Assembly (NCBI GenBank): GCA_019234945.1
Contig: JAFAKX010000251.1
Coordinates: 1-45,827, forward strand
Direction: 5' to 3'
Length of the DNA stretch: 45,827 nt
Origin: Silvibacterium sp.
GTDB lineage: Bacteria > Acidobacteriota > Terriglobia > Terriglobales > Acidobacteriaceae
The notes beneath the pieces are model-generated. The model was not told where the DNA came from. It worked only from the letters and a program-made list of their open reading frames with translations, and did no database searches. Of this stretch, positions 30,078-42,679 are shown one piece after another; the first letter of the stretch is position 1; every line of letters starts with the position of its first letter. A program made the translations under genes and the position numbers.

Positions 30078-30139
30078 TCAGGCCCTTTGGATTACACAAA
30101 ATGCAAAGGCCTTCCCCTGACAAAACTGACAGTGGTTAT

Positions 30140-30162: not shown

Positions 30163-30168
30163 GGAGTC

Positions 30169-30184
30169 TGTGACAGCCGTCACA
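30169..30184. promoter_or_regulatory. CRP/FNR-superfamily-like operator of the cytochrome operon
   Basis: TGTGA-CAGCCG-TCACA is a perfect dyad with the half-sites and spacing of CRP-type operators; the inner form is GTGAC-AGCC-GTCAC. Its centre (30176.5) is 41.5 bases upstream of the start point expected from the -10-like TATTCT at 30206-30211, which is the class II activator position. The same GTGAC-N4-GTCAC pattern precedes the phosphoketolase gene. Confidence 0.65.
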
Positions 30185-30205
30185 GTGCTTTGGTTGCGTA
30201 AACCC

Positions 30206-30211
30206 TATTCT
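30206..30211 (+). promoter_or_regulatory. Candidate -10 element of the cytochrome operon
   Basis: TATTCT matches TATAAT at four of six positions. No good -35 element is visible at the right distance, as expected for a promoter that depends on a bound activator at -41.5. This is a prediction from spacing only. Confidence 0.4.
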
Positions 30212-30223
30212 GTCGCTTAGTTC

Positions 30224-30288
30224 GCGGTAACGCATTGGGGTAGAACAGCGCCTGACTAATAGACAGGCCTACCGGGGCACCAGGCCCC
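30224..30288 (+). ncRNA. Structured 5' leader of the cytochrome operon: three consecutive hairpins
   Basis: Hairpin 1 is GCG-GTAA-CGC (30224-30233), closed by a GNRA-type tetraloop. Hairpin 2 is GGTAG (30239-30243), a six-base AACAGC bulge, GCCTG (30250-30254), a nine-base loop, then CAGGC-CTACC (30264-30273). Hairpin 3 is GGGGC-ACCAG-GCCCC (30274-30288), stacked with no gap on hairpin 2. Hairpin 3 is followed by TCCTTTTC and then the GGGAGAGAG ribosome site. It could be an attenuator or a ligand-binding leader. I compared it by eye with the cyclic-di-GMP-I, TPP and fluoride consensus sequences and found no match. Confidence 0.45.
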
Positions 30289-30309
30289 TCCTTTTCGGGA
30301 GAGAGACAG

Positions 30310-31260
30310 ATGAGACGTAAGCTGTTCGTTGCTACGTGTCTCGTGTTGTTTGGGATGGCCTGTACGACGCGATTTGCCAGGGCGGCGAGCGCGGAGCCGC
30401 AGCAGGCCGCCGTTTCCAATCCCAATACGAGCACTGCCAATGCCGACCAGTTTGTGGGGGCGGACACCTGCGAAACCTGCCATGCGGACGTCGCGAAGAA
30501 ATTCTTAGAGACTCCCCACTCGCGTCTTGCCTTGGAGCACGGGGGCAAGGGCGTAACCTGCGAAAGCTGTCACGGGCCCGGCAAGGCGCACGTGGACGCA
30601 GGCGGGGATGCGACGAAGATCTTTCAGTTCAGCAAGGCCTCCCCCAAAGTGGCCGATGAGAAGTGCCTGAGCTGTCACGCAGGGACCCATCCAAATTTTG
30701 AGCACTCGGCGCACGGCGAAGCGGCGATCGGCTGCCAGAGCTGCCACAGCGTTCACCATTCGAAGACCGAGGAGCACCTGCTAACGGCTGCGCAGCCAAA
30801 GCTTTGCTACACCTGCCATGCCGATATCAAGCCGGCATTCTCGCAGCCCTTCCACCACAAGGTGGATGAAGGGCTGATGAGCTGCAGCGATTGCCACAAT
30901 CCTCACGGCTCGTTCAACTCCACCTTGCAGCACCCCGCCACTATGCTCAACAAGGGTATCGGCGGCGACATCGTCTGCGTGAAGTGCCACACCGAGACTG
31001 CCGGCCCGTTCGTTTACCCACACCCTCCGATCCAGACCGAGGGCTGCCAAGGGTGCCATTACCCGCATGGATCGCCAAATCCAAGGCTTCTGACCCGCAA
31101 TAACGTGAATCAGCTTTGCCTGCAGTGCCACACGGCGTCCATGAACTTCACGGCTCCGGGAATTCCGTCGTTTCACAACCAGGCAAACCAGTACCAGGCC
31201 TGCACGGTCTGCCACTCGCAGATTCATGGATCCAACACCGACTTCGTGTTCTTCAGGTAA
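30310..31260 (+). CDS. Periplasmic decaheme cytochrome c, DmsE/MtrA family
   Basis: 316 residues with a signal peptide (cleavage near ARA-AS at 25/26) and exactly ten CxxCH heme sites: Cys54, 84, 119, 142, 166, 192, 223, 246, 270 and 298 (first Cys of each). Length, heme number and the even spread match DmsE/MtrA/PioA proteins, which sit inside an MtrB-type barrel and carry electrons across the outer membrane. The downstream gene encodes such a barrel. The DmsE name comes from DMSO respiration, but no DMSO reductase genes are present, so a metal, quinone or partner-cell electron route is more likely. The ribosome site is GGGAGAGAG. First gene of a four-gene operon. Confidence 0.93.
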   Translation: MRRKLFVATCLVLFGMACTTRFARAASAEPQQAAVSNPNTSTANADQFVGADTCETCHADVAKKFLETPHSRLALEHGGKGVTCESCHGPGKAHVDAGGDATKIFQFSKASPKVADEKCLSCHAGTHPNFEHSAHGEAAIGCQSCHSVHHSKTEEHLLTAAQPKLCYTCHADIKPAFSQPFHHKVDEGLMSCSDCHNPHGSFNSTLQHPATMLNKGIGGDIVCVKCHTETAGPFVYPHPPIQTEGCQGCHYPHGSPNPRLLTRNNVNQLCLQCHTASMNFTAPGIPSFHNQANQYQACTVCHSQIHGSNTDFVFFR

Positions 31261-31272
31261 GGGTGGGCACGT

Positions 31273-33474
31273 ATGACGAGCAAATACTCATTCGGATCGC
31301 GGGCAATGAGATTTCAGCGCAACACTCGACGGATTTGGCTTTGCGTTTTTGCGCTGGCGGCTCTTGCGGGGGCACAGGCGCAGAATAATCCGCTGTGGAC
31401 AGGGATCTCGACGGACACGGGTTCGGGCAAGAATGTCGCCGGTTATGAGGTCCACCAGTCCATCGACGTTGGCGGCCATATTCAGGAACAATCCGGCAGC
31501 CCCCAAATGTGGGCCACACTGGTCAACATCTACTCCGGGGCTCGCGTACTCGATCAGTCGCTGACAATGCGCGCCGCGGATCCCGGACATGCAATCGTCT
31601 TCGACCGGCTCTCATCCTATAGCTATGGATACGGTGGCGATCCCATTAATGTCACCAATCTCAACTTATCAAAGGGACGGCTTTACGACTTCCGTGGGAG
31701 TTACCGCAGGTATCGGCAATACTTCGACTACGACGTGCTGGCGAATCCGCTGATACCTCCGCAGTCGACCCCGTTTGTGCCGTGGCTGAACAGCCCGCAC
31801 CTCTACAACAGCCTGCGTCAGATCACCGATTTCGAGCTGAGGCTATTTCCGCTGTCACATGTGAGCGTGCGGTTCGGGTACAACCACAACATCAACCAGG
31901 GGCCCTCCTTTAGTTCGACACACCTCGGCAATGATCCATGGTTGTACCAGAACTGGAGAAATTCGACGGATACCTGGACTGGCGGTGTGGACTGGAAGCC
32001 GGACCCGAAGACGACCATCAGCTATGACCAGTTTGTGACTCATTACAAGGGCAACACGATCTGGACCCTGGCAGGCCTGGACTATGTGCTGCCCAACGGC
32101 CAGCCGGTAAGCCTCGGGGTGACTCTCTCGTCTGTGTGGAACGCTCCGTGTTCAGCTCCGTTTAACCCCGACGGCACGGTGAAGCCAACGTGCAACGCTG
32201 CCCTGGCCTACTCCCGGGTACAGCCCACACGAACCCTGTTTCCTACAGAGCAAGTACGGCTGCAGAGTTCGGACATTCCACACCTCAAGCTGAATGGGCG
32301 TCTGGCGTACACCGGTGCAAACAGCACACTCAACGGCTTCAACGAATCATTCAACGGATTGATTACCAGAACATCGCAGCGCGGGTACGTCGACACAGGT
32401 TCGGCACGTGTGCAACGCGTCAATGTCAACGGCGATTTCGCGCTCGAGTGGGAGATTACCCCAACGATCAGAGCCTCGGATGTTTATGACTTCTGGGCTT
32501 TCCGCATGCCAGGCATCAATACCCTTACAACAACGAGCTTTACAGGCACCTCGATGCTGCTCCCGCCCACTAGCTCGACCACAACGACCGCGACTGACCA
32601 GCAGTATCTGAATCAAAAGACCAGCACCAATACGGCTGTCCTGTCCTGGGACGTGACGCCAAAGGCAACCTTGTCGGTCGGCTATCGCTATCGCGCCCGC
32701 CGCATTACCGATGCAGGAGGCGACTCCATCCCGATCCATGAGAACTGGGGCCTGTTCGGCGCAGCGCTCCGACCCCTGCCTGAGCTGCGCATCAACTTCA
32801 ACTTCGAAGGCATGTCTGCAGATAACGCGTTCACCCGCATCGACCCGCGCCAACTGTATCACTACATTGTGCGCGCGACCTACAATCCGCGTACCTGGCT
32901 TTCTGTCAATGGCGCGGTGAACATTTTCGAGTCGAGAGACAATGTGCAGACGGTCAACCATCTCGAGCACGATCGCGACTTTGCCTTCGGCGCGTCGATT
33001 ATCCCCAGCGAGAAATGGTCGGTGGATCTGGGCTACTCGTACAACAGCGTGTACTCGACGACGCTGATCTGCTATCCCTCGACGCCGCCGCCGCCGGGAG
33101 CCGGAACCGCGCCTCCAGTCTGCGCCAGTGCGGGCACACCGTTTTCGGGGAACGGCTACTACAATGCTCCAACGAACTTCGGCACCATCGGCTTTACGTT
33201 CAACCCCATCAATCGCGTGCACGCCAGAGCGGGATATCGCATGAGTTCGGTGAATGGCACCTCGGAGTCGATCAACATCCGACAGGTGCCTGGCTCATTG
33301 CAGTCGCAGTATCAGCAGCCTTATGGCGGATTGGGCGTGGAGATTGCTCCGAAATGGACATGGAAGTTCGACTGGAACTACTACAGCTACGGCGAAGGAA
33401 CTCCGATCGGCCCAACGCTACCCAGAAGCACCCGCGGGAATGTGTATACGCTGGCTGTAAATTACGCCTTTTGA
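31273..33474 (+). CDS. Outer-membrane beta-barrel, MtrB/PioB-type porin for the decaheme cytochrome
   Basis: 733 residues. A signal peptide (WLCVFALAALAGAQAQ) is followed by many alternating amphipathic strands and a C-terminal aromatic residue (TLAVNYAF), typical of outer-membrane barrels. Strand-like segments include HVSVRFGYNHNINQGPSF and ATLSVGYRYRARRITDAGG. Its place 12 bases after an MtrA-type gene identifies it as the MtrB/PioB partner, which sheathes the decaheme wire. Apart from the signal there are only four cysteines, in two pairs (293/307 and 600/617), each bounding a Pro/Gly-rich loop. The MtrB N-terminal CxxC motif is absent. A second start at 31306 is possible. Confidence 0.88.
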   Translation: MTSKYSFGSRAMRFQRNTRRIWLCVFALAALAGAQAQNNPLWTGISTDTGSGKNVAGYEVHQSIDVGGHIQEQSGSPQMWATLVNIYSGARVLDQSLTMRAADPGHAIVFDRLSSYSYGYGGDPINVTNLNLSKGRLYDFRGSYRRYRQYFDYDVLANPLIPPQSTPFVPWLNSPHLYNSLRQITDFELRLFPLSHVSVRFGYNHNINQGPSFSSTHLGNDPWLYQNWRNSTDTWTGGVDWKPDPKTTISYDQFVTHYKGNTIWTLAGLDYVLPNGQPVSLGVTLSSVWNAPCSAPFNPDGTVKPTCNAALAYSRVQPTRTLFPTEQVRLQSSDIPHLKLNGRLAYTGANSTLNGFNESFNGLITRTSQRGYVDTGSARVQRVNVNGDFALEWEITPTIRASDVYDFWAFRMPGINTLTTTSFTGTSMLLPPTSSTTTTATDQQYLNQKTSTNTAVLSWDVTPKATLSVGYRYRARRITDAGGDSIPIHENWGLFGAALRPLPELRINFNFEGMSADNAFTRIDPRQLYHYIVRATYNPRTWLSVNGAVNIFESRDNVQTVNHLEHDRDFAFGASIIPSEKWSVDLGYSYNSVYSTTLICYPSTPPPPGAGTAPPVCASAGTPFSGNGYYNAPTNFGTIGFTFNPINRVHARAGYRMSSVNGTSESINIRQVPGSLQSQYQQPYGGLGVEIAPKWTWKFDWNYYSYGEGTPIGPTLPRSTRGNVYTLAVNYAF

Positions 33475-33528
33475 AAACTAGTCGTGCCGCGCTATGATTG
33501 GCGCGCTTAACAGGAGGAGCAACTCACA

Positions 33529-33843
33529 ATGGTTAAACAATTCGCAGGCGCCTGTCTCATGACCCTGCTCGCAGCAGGAACGGCGAGCTTTGCCCAGGAT
33601 GCAGCGGCTACTTACAAAGCCAAGTGCCAGATGTGCCATGGCGCAACGGGCATGGCCGACACTCCGGCGGGCAAATCGACCAAGGCAAGGCCTTTCAACT
33701 CACCGGATGTAACGAAAATGTCTGATGATGATCTGATCAAAGTTATAACCGACGGTCATGCCAAAATGCCGGCTTACAAGGGCAAGCTGACGGATGCCCA
33801 GATTAAGGACCTGGTCGCCTACATCCACACTCTGCAGAAGTAG
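33529..33843 (+). CDS. Small monoheme class I cytochrome c (c6-like)
   Basis: 104 residues. A signal peptide (cleavage near SFA-QD) leads to a soluble periplasmic cytochrome with heme site CQMCH (Cys33, Cys36, His37). The likely distal ligand is Met80 in HAKMPAYKGKL. LTDAQIKDLVAYIHTLQK is the typical last helix. The AGGAGGAG ribosome site is strong. Between the barrel gene and the inner-membrane cytochrome gene, it is well placed to shuttle electrons through the periplasm between them. Confidence 0.93.
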   Translation: MVKQFAGACLMTLLAAGTASFAQDAAATYKAKCQMCHGATGMADTPAGKSTKARPFNSPDVTKMSDDDLIKVITDGHAKMPAYKGKLTDAQIKDLVAYIHTLQK

Positions 33844-33866
33844 TAAGCGAAAGAGACAGCCCAAGA

Positions 33867-35300
33867 ATGGCACAAACCGGGGGCATCAAAGAGCGCTGGA
33901 TTCAGCCGGGCGTTTTCCTTGCGAACAACGCAATCAGTCTTATTGGAGTGGGGCTTACCACGGCGTCGGCCCTGATTCTGATTGGGTTCTGGGTCATCGA
34001 TGTATTCGGCCGGGGCGGGTCACACAACCCCTACGTCGGTATCATCGTCGACTTGTGCCTGCCGGCGCTCTTTGTCCTTGGGCTGATCCTGATTCCTCTC
34101 GGCATCCTGCTGCGGCGGCGCAAGCTGAGGGTGGCGGGCCAGTTACCAACCGAGTATCCAAAAATCGAGCTGAGGAATCCTGTCTTCCGCGAAGCCCTCA
34201 TTTTCGTTGTCGTTGCCACATTTCTGAATTTTGTGATTGTCGGGACGGCCAGCTATCGCAGCGTCGCCTACATGGACACGCCGAACTTCTGCGGCCAGGC
34301 GTGCCACGTGATGGCGCCGGAGTTCGCCGCGTATCAGGTGTATCCGCACTCGCATGTGGCATGTACGGAATGCCATATTGCTAGCGGGATTCCCGGCTTT
34401 ATTGCCGCGAAGCTGAACGGAACAAAGCAGCTTATAGACCTGGTGCTTGACACCTATCCGCGACCGATCATGCAAGCGGGCAAAGTGCCTGCGGCAAGCA
34501 CCACGTGCGTTCATTGCCACAATCCGGGGAGATTTGTTGGCGACAAGCTTGTCGTGACCACAGCGTACGGAGACGATGAGAACAATCCGGCGACCAAGTC
34601 ACTAGTGCTGCTGCATGTTGGTGGCAAGGACATGGCGGGGCATCTGAGCGGGATCCACGGCGCTCACATGGGACGTATCGAATACATCGCTACTGACAAC
34701 ACGAATCAGACGATCCCGTGGGTGGCTAAGGTGAATGACGATGGATCCACCACTGAGTTCGTTTCGTCGGACGCGAAGCAGCCGGTGAATGGCGCAAAAC
34801 GCGTGATGGATTGCATCGACTGCCACAACCGGGCCGCGCACTCGTTCGATACGCCGGAAAAATCGCTGAATAAGGCGATGCTGCGGGGGCTGGTGGATCC
34901 TTCTCTGCCCTTCGCGCACAAGGAAGGCCTGGCCCTCATCAAGGCCGAGTACGCATCACAGGCTGAGGCGGATTCAAAGATCGTCTCGGGATTTCAGGAC
35001 TTCTACAGGACACAACATGCTGACGTGTGGAACCAGAAGCAGTCGCAGATTGAGCGATCGGCGAAGGCCCTGAGCGCGATCTACGACGTGAACGTCTTTC
35101 CCAACATGAAGCTCACGTGGGGCACGCATCCCAACAACCTCGACCATAACGACTATCCGGGATGCTTCCGCTGCCACGATGGAAACCATAACACGAAAGA
35201 CGGCAGCAAGAGCATCAACAACGACTGCTCCGTATGCCACAATCTGCTGGCCACGGACGAAGCAAATCCCAAGCAGCTTGCCGACCTGGGATTGCAGTAA
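33867..35300 (+). CDS. NapC/NirT-type inner-membrane multiheme cytochrome (ImcH-like)
   Basis: 477 residues with three hydrophobic segments near 20-45, 57-82 and 108-128, then a periplasmic heme domain. Five normal CxxCH sites start at Cys166, 214, 316, 433 and 454. A sixth is CGQACH (Cys142, Cys146, His147), with three residues between the cysteines, in TPNFCGQACHVMAPEF. This CxxxCH form also occurs, to my recollection, in related Geobacter and Anaeromyxobacter proteins. NapC/NirT proteins oxidise membrane quinol. ImcH in Geobacter feeds electrons to extracellular acceptors of higher potential. Here it is the presumed entry point of the conduit encoded just upstream. Confidence 0.9.
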   Translation: MAQTGGIKERWIQPGVFLANNAISLIGVGLTTASALILIGFWVIDVFGRGGSHNPYVGIIVDLCLPALFVLGLILIPLGILLRRRKLRVAGQLPTEYPKIELRNPVFREALIFVVVATFLNFVIVGTASYRSVAYMDTPNFCGQACHVMAPEFAAYQVYPHSHVACTECHIASGIPGFIAAKLNGTKQLIDLVLDTYPRPIMQAGKVPAASTTCVHCHNPGRFVGDKLVVTTAYGDDENNPATKSLVLLHVGGKDMAGHLSGIHGAHMGRIEYIATDNTNQTIPWVAKVNDDGSTTEFVSSDAKQPVNGAKRVMDCIDCHNRAAHSFDTPEKSLNKAMLRGLVDPSLPFAHKEGLALIKAEYASQAEADSKIVSGFQDFYRTQHADVWNQKQSQIERSAKALSAIYDVNVFPNMKLTWGTHPNNLDHNDYPGCFRCHDGNHNTKDGSKSINNDCSVCHNLLATDEANPKQLADLGLQ

Positions 35301-35369
35301 ACCTTCAATCCTATAGAAAAGACGGCCCTTTCATTGAAATCGGGTGGTGAAACGCGAAGCTTGCATCCA

Positions 35370-35385
35370 TTCACATTCCGTTCAC
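35370..35385. promoter_or_regulatory. Phased direct repeat TTCAC upstream of phosphoketolase
   Basis: TTCACATTCCG and TTCACGATTCG are adjacent 11-base units, one helical turn apart, nine of eleven bases the same. Such phasing is common for OmpR/PhoB-type activators. They abut the CRP/FNR-like site. Confidence 0.35.
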
Positions 35386-35390
35386 GATTC

Positions 35391-35406
35391 GGTGACACCA
35401 GTCACT
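35391..35406. promoter_or_regulatory. CRP/FNR-superfamily-like operator of the phosphoketolase-glycogen operon
   Basis: GGTGA-CACCAG-TCACT contains GTGAC-ACCA-GTCAC, the same half-sites and spacing as the dyad before the cytochrome operon. It is about 120 bases upstream of the phosphoketolase ATG. Confidence 0.6.
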
Positions 35407-35413
35407 TACAGTA

Positions 35414-35476
35414 GCGCCTGGCGCAAGCAGGTTGTCAGCTGAGCGCTGGACGCTGTCACTTCTGACAGACGACAAC
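35414..35476. promoter_or_regulatory. Cluster of dyads in the phosphoketolase upstream region
   Basis: In order: GCGCC-T-GGCGC (35414-35424); TCAGCTGA (35435-35442); CTGTCA-CTTC-TGACAG (35453-35468). The last is nested in an outer repeat, GTTGTC (35431-35436) with GACAAC (35471-35476). They may be protein sites or alternative hairpins in the transcript, depending on where transcription begins. Confidence 0.4.
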
Positions 35477-35525: not shown

Positions 35526-37961
35526 ATGGCGACCACATTGGCTCCAGAAAAAATTCACGATGACATCACGGCTTACGGCGCGGCCAGGTCGACAGTGCAG
35601 GGCACGCCCTTGAGCGATGAAGAACTACGCAAAACCGACGCCTACTGGCGCGCGTGTACCTACATGATGCTGGGGATGATCTATCTGCAGGACAATCCTC
35701 TTCTGAAAGAGCCACTGAAGCCGGAGCACATCAAGAATCGGCTTTTGGGACATTGGGGATCGAGCCCGGGTCTTGCGTTCACGTACATCCATCTGAACCG
35801 GCTCATCAAGAAGTACGACCTGGACATGATCTTTCTCGCCGGCCCGGGCCACGGAGCGCCCGGCGTGCTCGCGCCTGTGTATCTCGAGGGCACTTATTCG
35901 GAGATTTACACCGACAAGTGCGAAGACGAAGAAGGGATGCGCGCGTTTTTCAAGCAATTTTCGTTCCCGGGTGGGGTCGGGAGCCACTGCACGCCGGAGA
36001 CTCCCGGGTCGATCCATGAAGGCGGTGAGCTGGGCTATGTGCTTTCCCATGCGTGCGGCGCCGCGTTCGACAATCCGAACCTGATTGTTGCGGCGGTTGT
36101 CGGCGATGGCGAGTCCGAAACGGGGCCGCTGGCGACGTCCTGGCACATCAATAAGTTCCTGAATCCGATTCGCGACGGCGCGGTGCTGCCAATTTTTCAC
36201 CTCAACGGTTACAAAATCAACAATCCAACACTGCTGGCACGCATACCGCATAAAGAGCTGGAGGACCTACTCCGCGGTTATGGATGGACGCCATATTTCG
36301 TCGAAGGCTCCGACCACGCGAGTATGCACCAGGCGATGGCGGTGACGACGGAACACTGCGTCAATGAAATCAGAAAATCACAACAGGCGGCGCGCGAGAC
36401 GGGCGTTGCCACGCGCGTGCATTGGCCGATGATCGTGCTGCGGAGTCCGAAGGGTTGGACTGCTCCGAGACAACTGGATGGGCACTATGTTGAAGGATTC
36501 TGGCGCGCGCACCAGGTGCCGATGGCCGACGTGAAGACGAATCCGCATCGGTTACAGGAGCTCGAGGATTGGATGCGGTCGTACAAGCCGGAAAAGCTAT
36601 TCAATGCTAATGGAACCCTTATTGAAGAATTGAGGGAGCTCGCTCCCAAGGGCACTCGGCGCATGGGATCGAATCCTCATGCGAATGGCGGCGGACTGAA
36701 GCGGGCACTGCGGATGCCTGATTTCCGCGACTATGCCTGCAAGTTTGAGAAGCCCGGAACCATTGAGGTGGAGAACGCGAAGCCGCTTGGAACCTTCCTC
36801 CGCGACGTGATGAAGCTGAACATGAAGAACTTCCGCGTCTTCGGACCCGATGAAAACACATCGAACAAGCTGAGCGACATTTATGAGGTAAGCAAGAAGC
36901 TCTGGCTTTCCGAATACTTTGAGGAGGATATGGACGGCGGCGAACTGAGCCCCAATGGACGGGTCGTGGAGATGCTGAGCGAGCACACGATGGAGGGCAT
37001 GCTCGAAGGTTATCTGCTGACGGGCCGCCACGGGTTCTTCTCGTCGTATGAGGCGTTCATTCATGTGATCGACTCGATGTTCAACCAGCATGCGAAGTGG
37101 CTGGAGATATGCAACCACCTGTCGTGGCGAAAAAAGATTGCGTCGCTGAACATATTCGTAACGTCGACGGTCTGGAGGCAGGATCACAATGGCTTTACCC
37201 ACCAGGATCCGGGCTTTCTGGATGTGGTGGTCAACAAGAGCGCGGCTGTCACGCGCATCTACATGCCGCCTGATGTGAATTCCCTGCTCTCGGTCGCCGA
37301 TCATTGCCTGCGAAGCGAGCAGTACATCAACGTCATCGTCTGCGACAAGCAGATGCACCTGCAGTACATGGACATGGATGCAGCGATTGTCCACTGCACC
37401 AAGGGAATCGGCATGTGGGACCCGGCGTGCAACGATCAGGGCGTCGAGCCGGACGTGGTGATGGCTTCAGCCGGCGACATTCCCACGCAGGAGACGCTCG
37501 CAGCCATCTGCATGCTGCGTGAGGCGTTTCCCGACCTGAAGATACGCTACATAAATGTCATAGACCTGTTCAAACTGCAGCCGAGCACCGAGCATCCTCA
37601 TGGGTTGACGGACCGGGACTTCAATTCTCTCTTTACAGTCGACAAGCCGATCATCTTCAACTTCCATGGGTATCCGTGGCTGGTTCACCGGCTGACCTAT
37701 GCTCGTGACAATCACAACAACATGCACGTGCGTGGATACAAGGAGAAAGGCAACATCAATACGCCACTGGAGCTTGCGATTGAGAACGAGATCGATCGCT
37801 TCAGCCTGGCGATGGATGTGATCAAGCGCGTGCCGAAGCTGCAGAAGATCGGCGGTCATGCCAGGGAGAAATTCCTGAACGAGCAGATTGAGTGCCGCAA
37901 CTATGCGTTCCAGCATGGAATCGACAGGCCTGATGTCAGGGACTGGCGTTGGCCTTACTAG
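35526..37961 (+). CDS. xfp: Xylulose-5-phosphate/fructose-6-phosphate phosphoketolase
   Basis: 811 residues. A ThDP enzyme that splits xylulose 5-phosphate or fructose 6-phosphate with phosphate, giving acetyl phosphate plus glyceraldehyde 3-phosphate or erythrose 4-phosphate. [40 protein letters not shown] and the ThDP motif [16 protein letters not shown] are family-specific. HPWLVHRL-like [16 protein letters not shown] lies near the end, and DWRWPY is close to the usual C-terminus. The ATG at 35526 is seven bases after AAGGAG, so the GTG at 35520 is rejected. First gene of an operon with glgP and glgX; no acetate kinase gene is adjacent. Confidence 0.96.
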
Positions 37962-37993: not shown

Positions 37994-40504
37994 ATGAGTA
38001 CTGAGATTGTTGCAACTGAGGCGAAGACAACCACGATCGATACAGCGCAGCTGCTGAAGCAGTATGGTTGCGGGCCGATAAAGTTCTCGAGCAATGATGG
38101 CCTTTACGAGCGGCATCTTCAGTTCGATAACGTCATTGACGAGAGCGAAGTCAACGCGCGCGAACAGTTCGAGGCCGGGGCTCATGCAATCCGCGATGTG
38201 CTTTCGCAGCGCTGGGTGGCGACCGAAAGGACCTACGACCAGCAGAACGCCAAGAGGGTCTACTACCTCTCGATGGAGTTTCTGCTCGGACGCTCGCTGT
38301 CAAATAACTTCACGAATATGCTGGTCACCCCTGAGATTTCGCGGATGGCGCAGGAGAACGGCATCGACCTGTTTCCCTTACTGGAGCAGGAACCCGATGC
38401 CGGGCTCGGCAATGGCGGACTCGGTCGCCTGGCGGCTTGTTTCCTGGATTCGATGGCCACGATGCAGCTTCCGGCGATGGGTTATGGGCTGCGATACGAG
38501 TACGGCATCTTCAAACAGGTCATCGAGGGCGGATGGCAGAAAGAGCAGCCGGACAACTGGCTCCGCCGCCCGGATCCCTGGGAAGTGATTCGCCCGTATG
38601 ACCAGGTGGAAATCAAACTGAACTGTACATTCCAACTGCACGAGGGGACCCTGCAACCGCTACGGGGCATGCCCTCCACCCTGTATGGCATACCGTTCGA
38701 TCGTCCGGTAGTCGGCTACGGTGGAAAGACAGTGAATACGCTGCGGCTCTGGGCGGCGGCAAGTCCGGACTATTTCGACTTTCAGAAGTTCAGCAGCGGT
38801 GACTTTGTCGGAGCGCTGGCGGAGAGCCTCGCGGCCGAATCGCTTACGCGCGTGCTTTATCCAGATGACAGTACAAGCATGGGCCGGGGGCTGCGCCTGG
38901 TCCAGCAATATTTCCTTGTGGCGTGTTCGCTGAAAGACCTGGTACGCCGCTTCCGCCGTTCCAACACAGATTGGAACACCCTGCCTGACAAGGTGGCGAT
39001 CCAGTTGAATGATACGCATCCCACACTGTCGGTTCCGGAACTGATGCGCATTCTGCTGGACGAGGCGCATCTTGGCTGGGACCAGGCGTGGGACATCACG
39101 CAGCGAACACTGGCTTACACGAACCATACGCTGCTGCCCGAGGCTCTGGAGAAGTGGCCGGTCGACTGGTTCGAGGCCATGATGCCAAGGCAACTCGAGA
39201 TTATCTACGAGATCAACCGGCGCCTCCTGAGGACAGTCAGAGATCGGTACCCCGGAGACGAGGGTCGCGCAGAGCGTGTGAGTCTGATCGAAGAGAAGCC
39301 CGAACGGAAAGTCCGGATGGCAAACTTGGCGATTGTGGGGTCGCACAGCACGAACGGGGTGGCGGCCATCCACAGCGAACTGCTGCGGAAGATGACGGTC
39401 AAGGACCTGGCAGAGCTGTTTCCGGAGCGCTTCAATAACAAGACGAATGGCGTGACGCCGAGGCGCTGGCTGTTGTTGTGTAATCCGGTGCTGTCAAACG
39501 TCATCACGGATACGATCGGGGATGACTGGGTGACGGACCTGAGCGAGTTGAAGAAGCTCGTTCGGCTTGCCGACGACCGTGGGTTCCATGCGTCATTCCT
39601 GAAGGCGAAGCGCGAAGCCAAGGTGAAGTTTTCCAATTGGTTAAAAGCGACTACAGGGCAGGAGGTGGATCCCGACACCATTATCGACTGCCAGGTGAAG
39701 AGAATCCACGAGTACAAGCGGCAATTGCTGAATGCGCTGCGGGTGGTTGTACTGTACAACCGTCTGCGGGAGAATCCGAACCTGGAGATGGCGCCGCGCA
39801 CGTTCATCTTTGCGGGCAAGGCGGCGCCGGCGTATCGGCTGGCGAAACTGATCATCAAGTTCATCAACAATCTGGCGGGGACGATCGATGGTGATCCGGC
39901 GGTCAAGGGGCGCATCAAAGTGTTGTTCCTGCCTGAGTATTGCGTCACGCAGGCCGAGCGGCTGATTCCGGCGTCGGATGTGTCGAACCAGATTTCGACG
40001 GCCGGATACGAGGCGAGCGGCACAAGCAACATGAAGTTCATGATGAATGGCGCGCTCACGATCGGCACCAGAGACGGCGCAACGATCGAGATGGCCGAAG
40101 AGGCGGGCGAGGAAAACTTCTTCCTGTTCGGTCTGACAACGGAGCAGGTGGCAAACAGCCGGGGCTGGTACAACCCGTGGTGGCATTATCACAACGAACC
40201 GGAAACGCGTGCGGCACTGGACATGATCTTCTCGGATTATTTCAGCCGGAATGAGCCGGGAGTGTTCGATCCGCTGCGCGAAACGCTGCTACTGAAGGGC
40301 GACTACTACATGCATCTGGCCGATCTCACGTCGTATCTGAATGCGGACCAGCAACTGCGAGATCTATACGCCGACCGCAATGGGTGGGCCAGGAAAGCCA
40401 TTCTGAATATTGCAAACTCCGGCAAATTTTCGAGCGACCGCACGATTGCGCAGTATGCCTCAGAGATCTGGGACGCGAAGCCGTGCCCGGTATTTTGCGG
40501 CTGA
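37994..40504 (+). CDS. glgP: Glycogen/alpha-glucan phosphorylase
   Basis: 836 residues. It releases glucose 1-phosphate from glycogen with phosphate. The PLP-binding lysine is Lys681 in GTSNMKFMMNGALTIGT. Other family boxes are YYLSMEFLLGRSLSNNF, GNGGLGRLAACFLDSMATM, QLNDTHPTLSVPELMRIL and VKRIHEYKRQLLNAL. Length is normal for the bacterial/eukaryotic GT35 group. The ATG at 37994 is preceded by AGGAAATGAGG and lies 32 bases after the phosphoketolase stop, so co-transcription is expected. No regulatory N-terminal phosphorylation or AMP site can be inferred. Confidence 0.96.
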   Translation: MSTEIVATEAKTTTIDTAQLLKQYGCGPIKFSSNDGLYERHLQFDNVIDESEVNAREQFEAGAHAIRDVLSQRWVATERTYDQQNAKRVYYLSMEFLLGRSLSNNFTNMLVTPEISRMAQENGIDLFPLLEQEPDAGLGNGGLGRLAACFLDSMATMQLPAMGYGLRYEYGIFKQVIEGGWQKEQPDNWLRRPDPWEVIRPYDQVEIKLNCTFQLHEGTLQPLRGMPSTLYGIPFDRPVVGYGGKTVNTLRLWAAASPDYFDFQKFSSGDFVGALAESLAAESLTRVLYPDDSTSMGRGLRLVQQYFLVACSLKDLVRRFRRSNTDWNTLPDKVAIQLNDTHPTLSVPELMRILLDEAHLGWDQAWDITQRTLAYTNHTLLPEALEKWPVDWFEAMMPRQLEIIYEINRRLLRTVRDRYPGDEGRAERVSLIEEKPERKVRMANLAIVGSHSTNGVAAIHSELLRKMTVKDLAELFPERFNNKTNGVTPRRWLLLCNPVLSNVITDTIGDDWVTDLSELKKLVRLADDRGFHASFLKAKREAKVKFSNWLKATTGQEVDPDTIIDCQVKRIHEYKRQLLNALRVVVLYNRLRENPNLEMAPRTFIFAGKAAPAYRLAKLIIKFINNLAGTIDGDPAVKGRIKVLFLPEYCVTQAERLIPASDVSNQISTAGYEASGTSNMKFMMNGALTIGTRDGATIEMAEEAGEENFFLFGLTTEQVANSRGWYNPWWHYHNEPETRAALDMIFSDYFSRNEPGVFDPLRETLLLKGDYYMHLADLTSYLNADQQLRDLYADRNGWARKAILNIANSGKFSSDRTIAQYASEIWDAKPCPVFCG

Positions 40505-40534: not shown

Positions 40535-42679
40535 ATGGGGGTAGCGCGGGTAAGTCCGGAACAGCAGGTTGATGGAGCCGGTTACAGCAAGGACGGCACT
40601 CGCGGCAGAAGCTCCCCCCTTGGCGCAACGCCAACGCAGAACGGCGTAAACTTCAGTGTTTATGCGCGTGATGCGACTGGCGTGGACCTCGTGTTGTTCG
40701 ATCGCGAAGATGACGCGCAGCCGGCGCGCGTCATTTCGCTCGATCCTTTCGCAAACCGCACCTATCACTACTGGCATGTCTTCGCTCCAAACGTAAAGGC
40801 CGAACAGCTTTACGGATATCGTGTGCGTGGGCCGTTCGATCCGGAGCGCGGTCTGCGCTTCGATGAGTCGAAGCTTCTGATTGATCCTTACGGGCGCGGT
40901 GTTACTGTTCCCCTCAACTACTCGCGCGAAACGGCGAAGGGTACCGACAATGCCGCGACCGCGATGAAGAGCGTCGTGGTCGATACCAGCGCGTACGACT
41001 GGGAAGGCGACGCACCTCTGTGCCTGCCGCCGGGGCGGACGATCATCTACGAAATGCATGTGAAGGGGTTTACGCAGAATCCCAACTCCGGTATTTCGGA
41101 GCAGACGCGCGGTACCTACCTGGGATTGATCGAGAAAATTCCCTATCTCAAGGATCTCGGTGTAACAGCCGTTGAGCTTCTTCCCGTATTTCAGTTCGAT
41201 GCGTTGGATTCCCCGCCGGGCCGGGTGAACTACTGGGGCTATGCTCCGGTCTCGTTCTTCGCGCCGCACCAGGGTTACAGTTCGGGGGCTTACAGTTCAC
41301 GCCGGAATCTCCTCGCACCGGTGAATGAATTTCGCGACATGGTGAAGGCGCTGCACCGGGCGGGCATTGAAGTCATCCTTGATGTGGTGTTCAACCATAC
41401 GGCGGAGGGGGACCAGAACGGACCTACATTCTGCTATCGCGGCTTCGATAACTGCGCTTATTACGTTCTGGAGCCGAACCGGGCGTGCTACTCAAACTAC
41501 AGCGGCACAGGAAACACGCTGAACGCCAACCATCCCATCGTCCGGCGGATGATCGTGGACAGCCTTCGATACTGGGTGGAAGAGATGCATGTAGATGGGT
41601 TCCGCTTCGACCTTGCCTCGATTCTGGCGCGTGATTCGACCGGCAACGTGCTGGCGAACCCGCCGGTGCTGTGGGATATCGAGTCGGACCCATCGCTGGC
41701 CGGAACGAAGATGATCGCGGAGGCGTGGGACGCAGCCGGTCTCTACCAGGTCGGCAGCTTTATCGGCGACAGTTGGAGGGAGTGGAACGGGCGGTTCCGG
41801 GACGACGTGCGCAGCTTTATGCGCGGGGAGGATTGCTCGGTGCGAAATTTTGCCGACCGTTTCCTCGGGAGTTGGCAGATCTATCGGCGTAAGGAGCGCG
41901 AGGCGGAGCAGAGCGTGAATTTCGTCACCTGCCACGACGGATTTACGCTGAACGACCTGGTTTCCTACAACCAGAAGCACAACGAGGCGAACGGCGAGAA
42001 CAATCGCGACGGCGGAGATGACAACCGCAGCTGGAACTGCGGGGTCGAGGGACCAACGGACGATCCTGCAATCGAGGAATTGCGAAACCGGCAGGTGAAG
42101 AACTTCATGACGGTGACGCTCATGTCGCTGGGCATGCCCATGTTCCTGATGGGCGACGAAGTGCGGAGAACGCAGTTTGGAAACAATAACGCCTACTGCC
42201 AGGATTCGGAGCTGAACTGGTTCGACTGGTCTCTGGTCGAGAAGCACAGAGATATCCATCGCTTTGTGAAGCTGCTGATCGCGAGACGGCATCTGCGCGA
42301 TTCGGAGGGCGAGTGGCGGGGTCTAAGCCTGAACAAGCTGCTGGCTCAGGCGGTGGCGGGGTGGCATGGGATCAAGCAGCATCAGGCGGACTGGAGCGAT
42401 CACTCCCACAGCCTGGCCTTCAGCGCGGACATAAAGCCGGAAGGCATTCTCTGCCATTTCATCTTCAATGCGTACTGGGAGCCGCTGACGTTCGAGTTGC
42501 CCTCTGTCCAGAACGGCGAGCGATGGAGGCGGTGGATCGATACTTCTCTGCCTTCTCCGCAGGACATCGCGCCCTGGAAGGATGCGCCTGAGATAGCGGG
42601 TCAGGCATATCAAGCGGGGCCGCGCTCGGTGGTCGTTCTCTGGGCACCGAGTGCGGAGAATACCGCAAAGTCTGCGTGA
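40535..42679 (+). CDS. glgX: Glycogen debranching enzyme GlgX (GH13)
   Basis: 714 residues. An N-terminal carbohydrate-binding module (GATPTQNGVNFSVYARDA) precedes a GH13 barrel. The catalytic set is the nucleophile Asp359 in VDGFRFDLAS, the acid/base Glu396 in AEAWDA and Asp468 in TCHDGF. VNYWGYAPVSFFAPHQGY and ILDVVFNHTAEGD are also typical of GlgX/isoamylase-type enzymes. It hydrolyses the alpha-1,6 branch stubs left by GlgP. The ribosome site is GAAAGAGG and the gap to glgP is 30 bases. Confidence 0.95.
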   Translation: MGVARVSPEQQVDGAGYSKDGTRGRSSPLGATPTQNGVNFSVYARDATGVDLVLFDREDDAQPARVISLDPFANRTYHYWHVFAPNVKAEQLYGYRVRGPFDPERGLRFDESKLLIDPYGRGVTVPLNYSRETAKGTDNAATAMKSVVVDTSAYDWEGDAPLCLPPGRTIIYEMHVKGFTQNPNSGISEQTRGTYLGLIEKIPYLKDLGVTAVELLPVFQFDALDSPPGRVNYWGYAPVSFFAPHQGYSSGAYSSRRNLLAPVNEFRDMVKALHRAGIEVILDVVFNHTAEGDQNGPTFCYRGFDNCAYYVLEPNRACYSNYSGTGNTLNANHPIVRRMIVDSLRYWVEEMHVDGFRFDLASILARDSTGNVLANPPVLWDIESDPSLAGTKMIAEAWDAAGLYQVGSFIGDSWREWNGRFRDDVRSFMRGEDCSVRNFADRFLGSWQIYRRKEREAEQSVNFVTCHDGFTLNDLVSYNQKHNEANGENNRDGGDDNRSWNCGVEGPTDDPAIEELRNRQVKNFMTVTLMSLGMPMFLMGDEVRRTQFGNNNAYCQDSELNWFDWSLVEKHRDIHRFVKLLIARRHLRDSEGEWRGLSLNKLLAQAVAGWHGIKQHQADWSDHSHSLAFSADIKPEGILCHFIFNAYWEPLTFELPSVQNGERWRRWIDTSLPSPQDIAPWKDAPEIAGQAYQAGPRSVVVLWAPSAENTAKSA

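Follow-up and report, generated by a model that had tools for sequence, protein, structure and literature searches.

The stretch of DNA analyzed here (the window) is the 45,827-nt contig JAFAKX010000251.1, contig 203 of a Silvibacterium sp. metagenome-assembled genome (MAG; G000, 3.50 Mb in 256 contigs, 72% complete). It carries two operons lying head to tail on the forward strand with a gap of 225 nt, each preceded by a GTGAC-N4-GTCAC dyad. The first operon opens with a gene for a DmsE/MtrA-like decaheme c-type cytochrome (30310–31260), placed in the DmsE family by a TIGR03508 score of 248.5 bits (cut-off 192.2) and ten CXXCH motifs. This gene is followed by one for a probable outer-membrane beta-barrel (porin-like) protein without CXXCH (31273–33474), which had no Pfam match and a weak GSU2204-family match (27 bits against a cut-off of 350), by a small monohaem cytochrome c gene (33529–33843; PF13442 and PF00034, one CXXCH) and by a gene for a NapC/NirT-family multihaem quinol dehydrogenase-like cytochrome (33867–35300; PF03264, five CXXCH and one CXXXCH). 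This arrangement resembles a porin-cytochrome conduit, through which electrons would presumably flow outwards. The second operon encodes a xylulose-5-P/fructose-6-P phosphoketolase (35526–37961; PF09364/PF03894/PF09363, NF003617 1539 bits), glycogen phosphorylase, glgP (37994–40504; TIGR02093 1079 bits, with a probable start codon in a frame open from 37949), and glycogen debranching enzyme, glgX (40535–42679; TIGR02100 708 bits against a cut-off of 641). No terminator-like hairpin was called between the two operons in a pattern scan.

The pairing of these genes was surveyed, among the matches listed, in 136 decaheme rows (125 genomes) and 150 phosphoketolase rows (141 genomes), with 14 of the 150 listed decaheme rows set aside as partial or broken. 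A decaheme gene and a phosphoketolase gene lay within 5 kb on one contig only in the source genome and its sister MAG (G005), and at 14–36 kb in four more genomes, broken contigs hiding some neighbours.

The first-pass annotation of the window had noted the same GTGAC-N4-GTCAC dyad before both operons, and the two copies are indeed identical in half-sites and spacing and both lie in intergenic gaps. Operator 1, TGTGACAGCCGTCACA (30169–30184, no strand assigned), is a CRP-type TGTGA-N6-TCACA palindrome 125 nt upstream of the decaheme ATG at 30310, and the candidate operator 2, GGTGACACCAGTCACT (35391–35406, no strand assigned), lies 119 nt upstream of the phosphoketolase ATG at 35526. With up to one mismatch the dyad occurs four times in the window against 1.35 expected, a count reached in 6 of 100 shuffles. 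The strict pattern occurs six times genome-wide, operators 1 and 2 included, against three for the reversed pattern; as it scarcely exceeded this control it was dropped as a search model. A refined model built on orthologues, TGTGAYN4RTCACA, gave four matches in the source genome against none for its reversed control, and 1918 against 41 across 250 genomes of its family, the Acidobacteriaceae. Operator 2 falls outside this model at the outer bases, with G...T where the model has T...A.

Conservation and promoter geometry of operator 1

For decaheme orthologues, roughly 350 nt upstream of each gene were searched for the match to TGTGAYN4RTCACA that scored highest (out of a possible 11), with the reversed motif as control. 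Scores of at least 10 were found before decaheme orthologues in 57 of 73 promoters, against one of 73 for the control, in rows that were picked by similarity, not at random, with a few genomes counted twice and related genomes not independent. Specifically, a first set (the 30 best rows together with G003, two copies from Silvibacterium bohemicum, G006, and G016) gave 24/34 against 1/34, and a second set (40 further rows minus one that was too short) gave 33/39 against 0/39. Genomes with named records, which include S. bohemicum (two copies) and Bryocella elongata and several of which overlap the 73, held 11 decaheme matches, and all ten with a readable upstream region scored at least 9 and had a –10 element at 21–22 nt. 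In a comparison of the window with G005, the closest relative searched, the 21-nt stretch holding operator 1 and the GTAAACCCTATTCTG block were identical, whereas the flanks had diverged.

The position of the site relative to the promoter was similarly constrained. A TAnnnT hexamer stood 21 or 22 nt past the operator in 45 of the 57 orthologous promoters with a site (13 and 32, respectively); no other offset between 0 and 37 accounted for more than two. Over 102 readings of strong sites on both strands, taken from the loci under study and the window, offsets 21 and 22 occurred 11 and 12 times and no other offset more than three times. In the window, the –10-like hexamer TATTCT (30206–30211, forward strand) begins 21 nt after operator 1, so that transcription is predicted to start near 30218 with the operator centered at –41.5. 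With this predicted start, the promoter is of class II activator architecture. That operator 1 is an operator of the Crp/Fnr superfamily, as the first-pass annotation had proposed, is strongly supported by the enrichment of the palindrome and its retention before decaheme orthologues; loss of the dyad before orthologous operons had been named as grounds for abandoning the idea, and at operator 1 the relatives gave the opposite result. As judged from these sequence comparisons, the cytochrome half of the proposal is real, and stronger than could have been known from the window.

Other readings of the palindromes were weighed against these features. A pattern scan called 30168–30185 terminator-like, which would suit the view that the dyads are terminators or RNA hairpins instead of operators; yet the region holds four such calls against 5.2 in shuffles, the DNA downstream (TGCTTTGGTT) has no T run, and a fixed distance to the –10 together with variable loop bases is a feature of protein sites, leaving the hairpin view most improbable. 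Equally improbable is an assignment of the sites to the NADH-sensing repressor Rex. Rex operators contain TGTGA...TCACA, with the consensus TGTGAA-N4-TTCACA, so that the half-sites are alike, and in both cases the targets are redox genes. The inner A....T pair of the Rex consensus was nonetheless found in none of 28 TGTGA-N6-TCACA sites from five genomes, 17 of which have pyrimidine....purine; class II activator spacing is ill suited to a repressor; and the number of sites tracks the Crp/Fnr subfamily described next, no search for Rex genes having been run.

A Crp/Fnr subfamily as the candidate regulator

The factor acting at operator 1 is most likely a member of an unnamed Crp/Fnr subfamily, represented here by a profile (A3) of 17 rows hand-picked from 25 matches, applied at E ≤ 1e-30 with up to 11 candidates scored per genome. 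In the 250 family genomes, the number of sites per genome correlated with the number of A3 matches (Spearman 0.69; the control motif gave 0.09). Specifically, 210 genomes with a match had a mean of 8.9 sites (five genomes having none) and the 40 without a match a mean of 1.3 (18 having none). Four of the 73 decaheme promoters came from genomes without a regulator match; two of these were siteless (G093 with a score of 7.5 and G202 with 8.5) and two, from the source genome and G044, had a site. At least 26 of 125 genomes have the regulator gene no more than 3 kb from the decaheme gene, often divergently oriented, and at least 5 of 141 have it that close to phosphoketolase (at least 10 within 20 kb).

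The recognition helix of A3 is of the CRP type (RE...R), with R and E invariant in all 17 rows and R four residues past E. In a published survey, R180 and E181 are correlated with the bases G and A in the half-site TGTGA (PMC1274295, in excerpt), and by this residue-base correlation the A3 helix would be predicted to read TGTGA. A CX2CX8C motif near the N-terminus was present in 15/17 rows and a cysteine in the barrel in 17/17.

The operator motif is the CRP core, and the solved proteins nearest to the subfamily by sequence are Crp of Mycobacterium tuberculosis and its relatives, which would agree with cyclic AMP-dependent CRP sites that report carbon status and not oxygen. We regard this as unlikely. 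The Arg-Thr-Ser stretch of M. tuberculosis Crp, which we take to belong to the nucleotide pocket, is aligned with Tyr-Glu-Val in the subfamily consensus, which therefore lacks the expected signature of a cyclic-nucleotide pocket; five members reached 48–64 bits, where the NCBIfam cut-off for CRP is 266; and many respiratory and anaerobic genes adjoin the sites. The subfamily thus shares its operator core and RE recognition helix with E. coli CRP and M. tuberculosis Crp, and differs from them in its presumed nucleotide-pocket residues and in the anaerobic type of the neighboring genes.

The likeness to FNR and ANR, oxygen regulators with a [4Fe-4S] cluster and class II activation, lies elsewhere, in the activator geometry at about –41.5, in targets such as cydAB, hydrogenase, universal stress protein (USP) and alcohol dehydrogenase genes, and in an N-terminal cysteine cluster. 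The FNR half-site is TTGAT, in contrast to TGTGA here, and the CX2CX8C motif with its fourth cysteine in the barrel departs from the canonical spacing of E. coli FNR. None of the five subfamily members passed the NCBIfam cut-offs, all five giving 34.6–74.8 bits against the FNR cut-off of 228. HcpR of Desulfovibrio is closer in its operator (wTGTGAnnnnnnTCACAw), being also a Crp/Fnr protein with a redox regulon; according to the excerpt of PMC1274295, it is without the FNR cysteine motif and has hcp as main target, whereas most members here carry cysteines and a decaheme conduit is one conserved target.

Operator 2 and control of phosphoketolase

Operator 2, which scores 9 of 11, is probably a weaker, lineage-specific candidate site of the factor acting at operator 1. 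A site scoring at least 10 was found before 15 of 104 family phosphoketolases against none for the control (9/44 and 6/60 in the two subsets), and at a threshold of 9 before 25 against five; the 104 represent one row per genome and part of the listed rows, out-of-family loci and one broken copy having been excluded. A class II –10 accompanied five of the 15 sites. Phosphoketolase so appears to be a sporadic member of the regulon within the family. The seven glgP homologues scored elsewhere had no usable site, six being below 9 and the seventh, at 9.5, overlapping the start codon. A candidate phosphoketolase site in G005 (L009) was rejected, as it lies within a cytochrome c gene.

Taken as a whole, we consider it quite probable that an oxygen-type activator works at operator 1, with operator 2 as its probable weaker, lineage-specific site. 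On this account, a Crp/Fnr-superfamily activator would bind operator 1 and turn on the decaheme-porin-cytochrome c-NapC operon at low oxygen; members of the A3 subfamily would be the proteins that bind the site, act as sensors of oxygen or redox state and, from the class II position, make contact with RNA polymerase. Operator 2, the weaker site, would bring the same factor to phosphoketolase-glgP-glgX, so that glycogen breakdown to acetyl phosphate, yielding ATP through acetate kinase, would be coupled to electron disposal. Since the operons are head to tail and close together with no called terminator between them, read-through from operator 1 could produce an equal coupling without operator 2.

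A number of observations weigh against parts of this account. With regard to the motif, the slight enrichment in the strict-pattern genome scan that the first-pass annotation had proposed is offset by the fact that three of the four sites other than operators 1 and 2, and hence three of all six, lie within called open reading frames (ORFs; of 815, 221 and 131 codons), and many strong sites in relatives likewise sit within called ORFs. With regard to the regulator, no A3 match was found in the source MAG among the 11 of 23 first-look candidates that were scored, and two Pfam searches in which all candidates were scored agree; the single full Crp/Fnr protein of the MAG over the cut-off carries a TPFTVSR helix, which should not be suited to TGTGA. 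The absence of a subfamily member may reflect the incompleteness of the assembly (72%), because the sister MAG G005 has a member. G044, which has a decaheme site, and G007, which has a site before ccmF, are both without a regulator match as well. The N-terminal cysteines are missing in 2 of the 17 A3 members, and for this reason oxygen sensing may not be universal across the subfamily. As for operator 2, its counterpart in G005, AGTGATCCCGGTCGCA, has two changes inside the half-sites, in a locus where the phosphoketolase itself is 92% identical to that of the window; no TAnnnT stands 21–22 nt past it (the hexamer there is CAGGTT), so that class II geometry is lacking; and 89 of the 104 family phosphoketolases have no site of at least 10. 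The conservation in relatives that was seen for operator 1 therefore fails for operator 2, which is degenerate in G005 and has strong equivalents before just 15 phosphoketolases.

These points feed an alternative to which we give a sizeable chance, if one short of even, namely that operator 1 alone is real, operator 2 being a chance match or relic and phosphoketolase-glgP-glgX being controlled by a factor of CTGTCA-N4-TGACAG or by read-through. A second palindrome, CTGTCA-CTTC-TGACAG (35453–35468, no strand assigned), lies about 57–73 nt upstream of the phosphoketolase start, within a block of 23 nt that is unchanged in G005, whereas operator 2 has diverged there, and it had no match in 100 window shuffles. 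A variant of it, TGTCAGTTTTGACA, precedes the phosphoketolase of G093, a genome with neither a regulator match nor an operator-2-like site (best score 8). The lack of a called terminator-like hairpin between the operons would favor read-through. On the other side, a perfect GTGAC-N4-GTCAC is rare (six in 3.5 Mb, against three for the control), which makes a chance occurrence in a gap of 225 nt unlikely, although the dyad was picked after the fact, and good sites do precede the 15 other family phosphoketolases mentioned above. An RNA-hairpin reading of 35453–35468 was unsupported (fold z-score –0.72). Half-sites and spacing of the same kind recur upstream of operator 1, where a direct repeat TGACA-N4-TGACA (30118–30131, forward strand) has both half-sites kept in G005.

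The proposal of the first-pass annotation that a single regulator governs both operons is in this way divided: as a target, the cytochrome operon is broadly conserved, and the phosphoketolase-glgP-glgX side is weakly supported. A phosphoketolase link confined to this lineage is plausible, and it may run through operator 2, through read-through from operator 1, or through both.

Genes beside the sites and the proposed low-oxygen regulon

The genes beside the sites were chosen by hand, 40 proteins being annotated without an enrichment statistic on gene classes. In the source genome, twin sites 31 nt apart (contig C233; L131 5510 and 5541) precede a Zn-alcohol dehydrogenase gene followed by a USP gene, with a divergent Dps gene, and roughly 500 nt upstream of an NrfCD-like pair there is a further site, within the called 221-codon ORF. 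Strong sites in relatives lie before or next to cydAB (G006 and G002), NiFe-hydrogenase genes, nitroreductase, USPs and ccmF (G007), and are also found at genes for a GGDEF-EAL protein, a fatty-acid desaturase and the regulators themselves. Several neighbors have no family or redox role, among them radical-SAM, propeller-repeat, ABC-transporter and amidohydrolase proteins. Genes of redox metabolism, fermentation and stress, whose presence beside the sites had been suggested as a check, thus recur in the source genome and in relatives among these hand-chosen neighbors, which suggests a low-oxygen regulon. Expression of usp, adhP and glycogen genes goes up in Acidobacterium capsulatum when O2 drops from 10 to 0.1 µM, in a response in which about 81% of transcribed genes changed (PMC11636273, in excerpt); because so large a share of genes responded, this agreement is weak evidence on its own. 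A word search of the main text of that paper gave no occurrence of "Crp" or "FNR".

More tentatively, and on balance a little less readily than we would doubt it, the data could be extended to an oxygen/redox regulon of the Acidobacteriaceae's own, under an undescribed Crp/Fnr subfamily that would carry FNR-like cysteines and yet read DNA in the manner of CRP; decaheme-porin extracellular electron transfer would be the core target of this regulon, which would have been extended in the Silvibacterium lineage to the phosphoketolase-glycogen operon. If this were true, on exhaustion of oxygen stored glycogen would be converted to acetyl phosphate for ATP while leftover electrons exit the cell. A possible extracellular respiration would then fall under the low-oxygen response and, if operator 2 works, energy storage and electron disposal would be joined in one switch. 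Acidobacteria rank among the most common bacteria of soils, and the operator, subfamily and target named here make the low-oxygen response seen in A. capsulatum directly testable.

The nearest precedent is FixK2 of Bradyrhizobium diazoefficiens, likewise a low-oxygen Crp/Fnr protein with authority over phosphoketolase and cytochrome c. It controls bll2518-bll2517 (phosphoketolase and acetate/propionate kinase), whose expression was 10-fold lower in the mutant, from the box TTGACCTCACGCAA; this box is of the TTGA type, the organism is of another phylum, and glgP-glgX or a decaheme conduit are not among the targets in the excerpt of PMC9104804. Bradyrhizobium phosphoketolase is also listed where changes of proteins and genes under microoxic conditions are tabulated (PMC6515984, in part), and a putative phosphoketolase in a table of the predicted FNR/FixK regulon (PMC2908626, in part). 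For Acidobacteria, decaheme genes from peat metagenomes have led to the proposal of a role in iron reduction (PMC3669403, from an extract), and a word search of the genome survey PMC5900883 gave no occurrence of FNR, Crp, phosphoketolase, decaheme or multiheme. Among the matches listed from open-licence PMC literature, there was no description of such an operator or regulator in Acidobacteria or of such control of a decaheme conduit. The statement in the first-pass annotation that the link had not been described is accordingly too broad, as FixK2 already ties phosphoketolase to cytochrome c (PMC9104804, in excerpt), and stands for Acidobacteria and the decaheme conduit within that literature.

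Operators were also observed in tandem, 22–24 nt or about two helical turns apart, at L137 (4966/4988/5012), L138 (4312/4334), L139 (4735/4757) and L144 (5381/5403), some of them adjoining regulator or USP genes; because of this spacing, they suggest cooperative binding by stacked dimers. In S. bohemicum, a redox island (L134–L136, within G006:C12:165000-252000) contains several Crp/Fnr paralogues, NiFe hydrogenase, cytochrome bd, nitroreductase and USP, and is reminiscent of low-oxygen loci of other phyla; a phosphoketolase gene lies about 30 kb beyond it. In the source genome, a partial second glgP-like copy is present on another contig (C172:36423-36821; L336), with 71% identity to the glgP of the window over residues 716–848.

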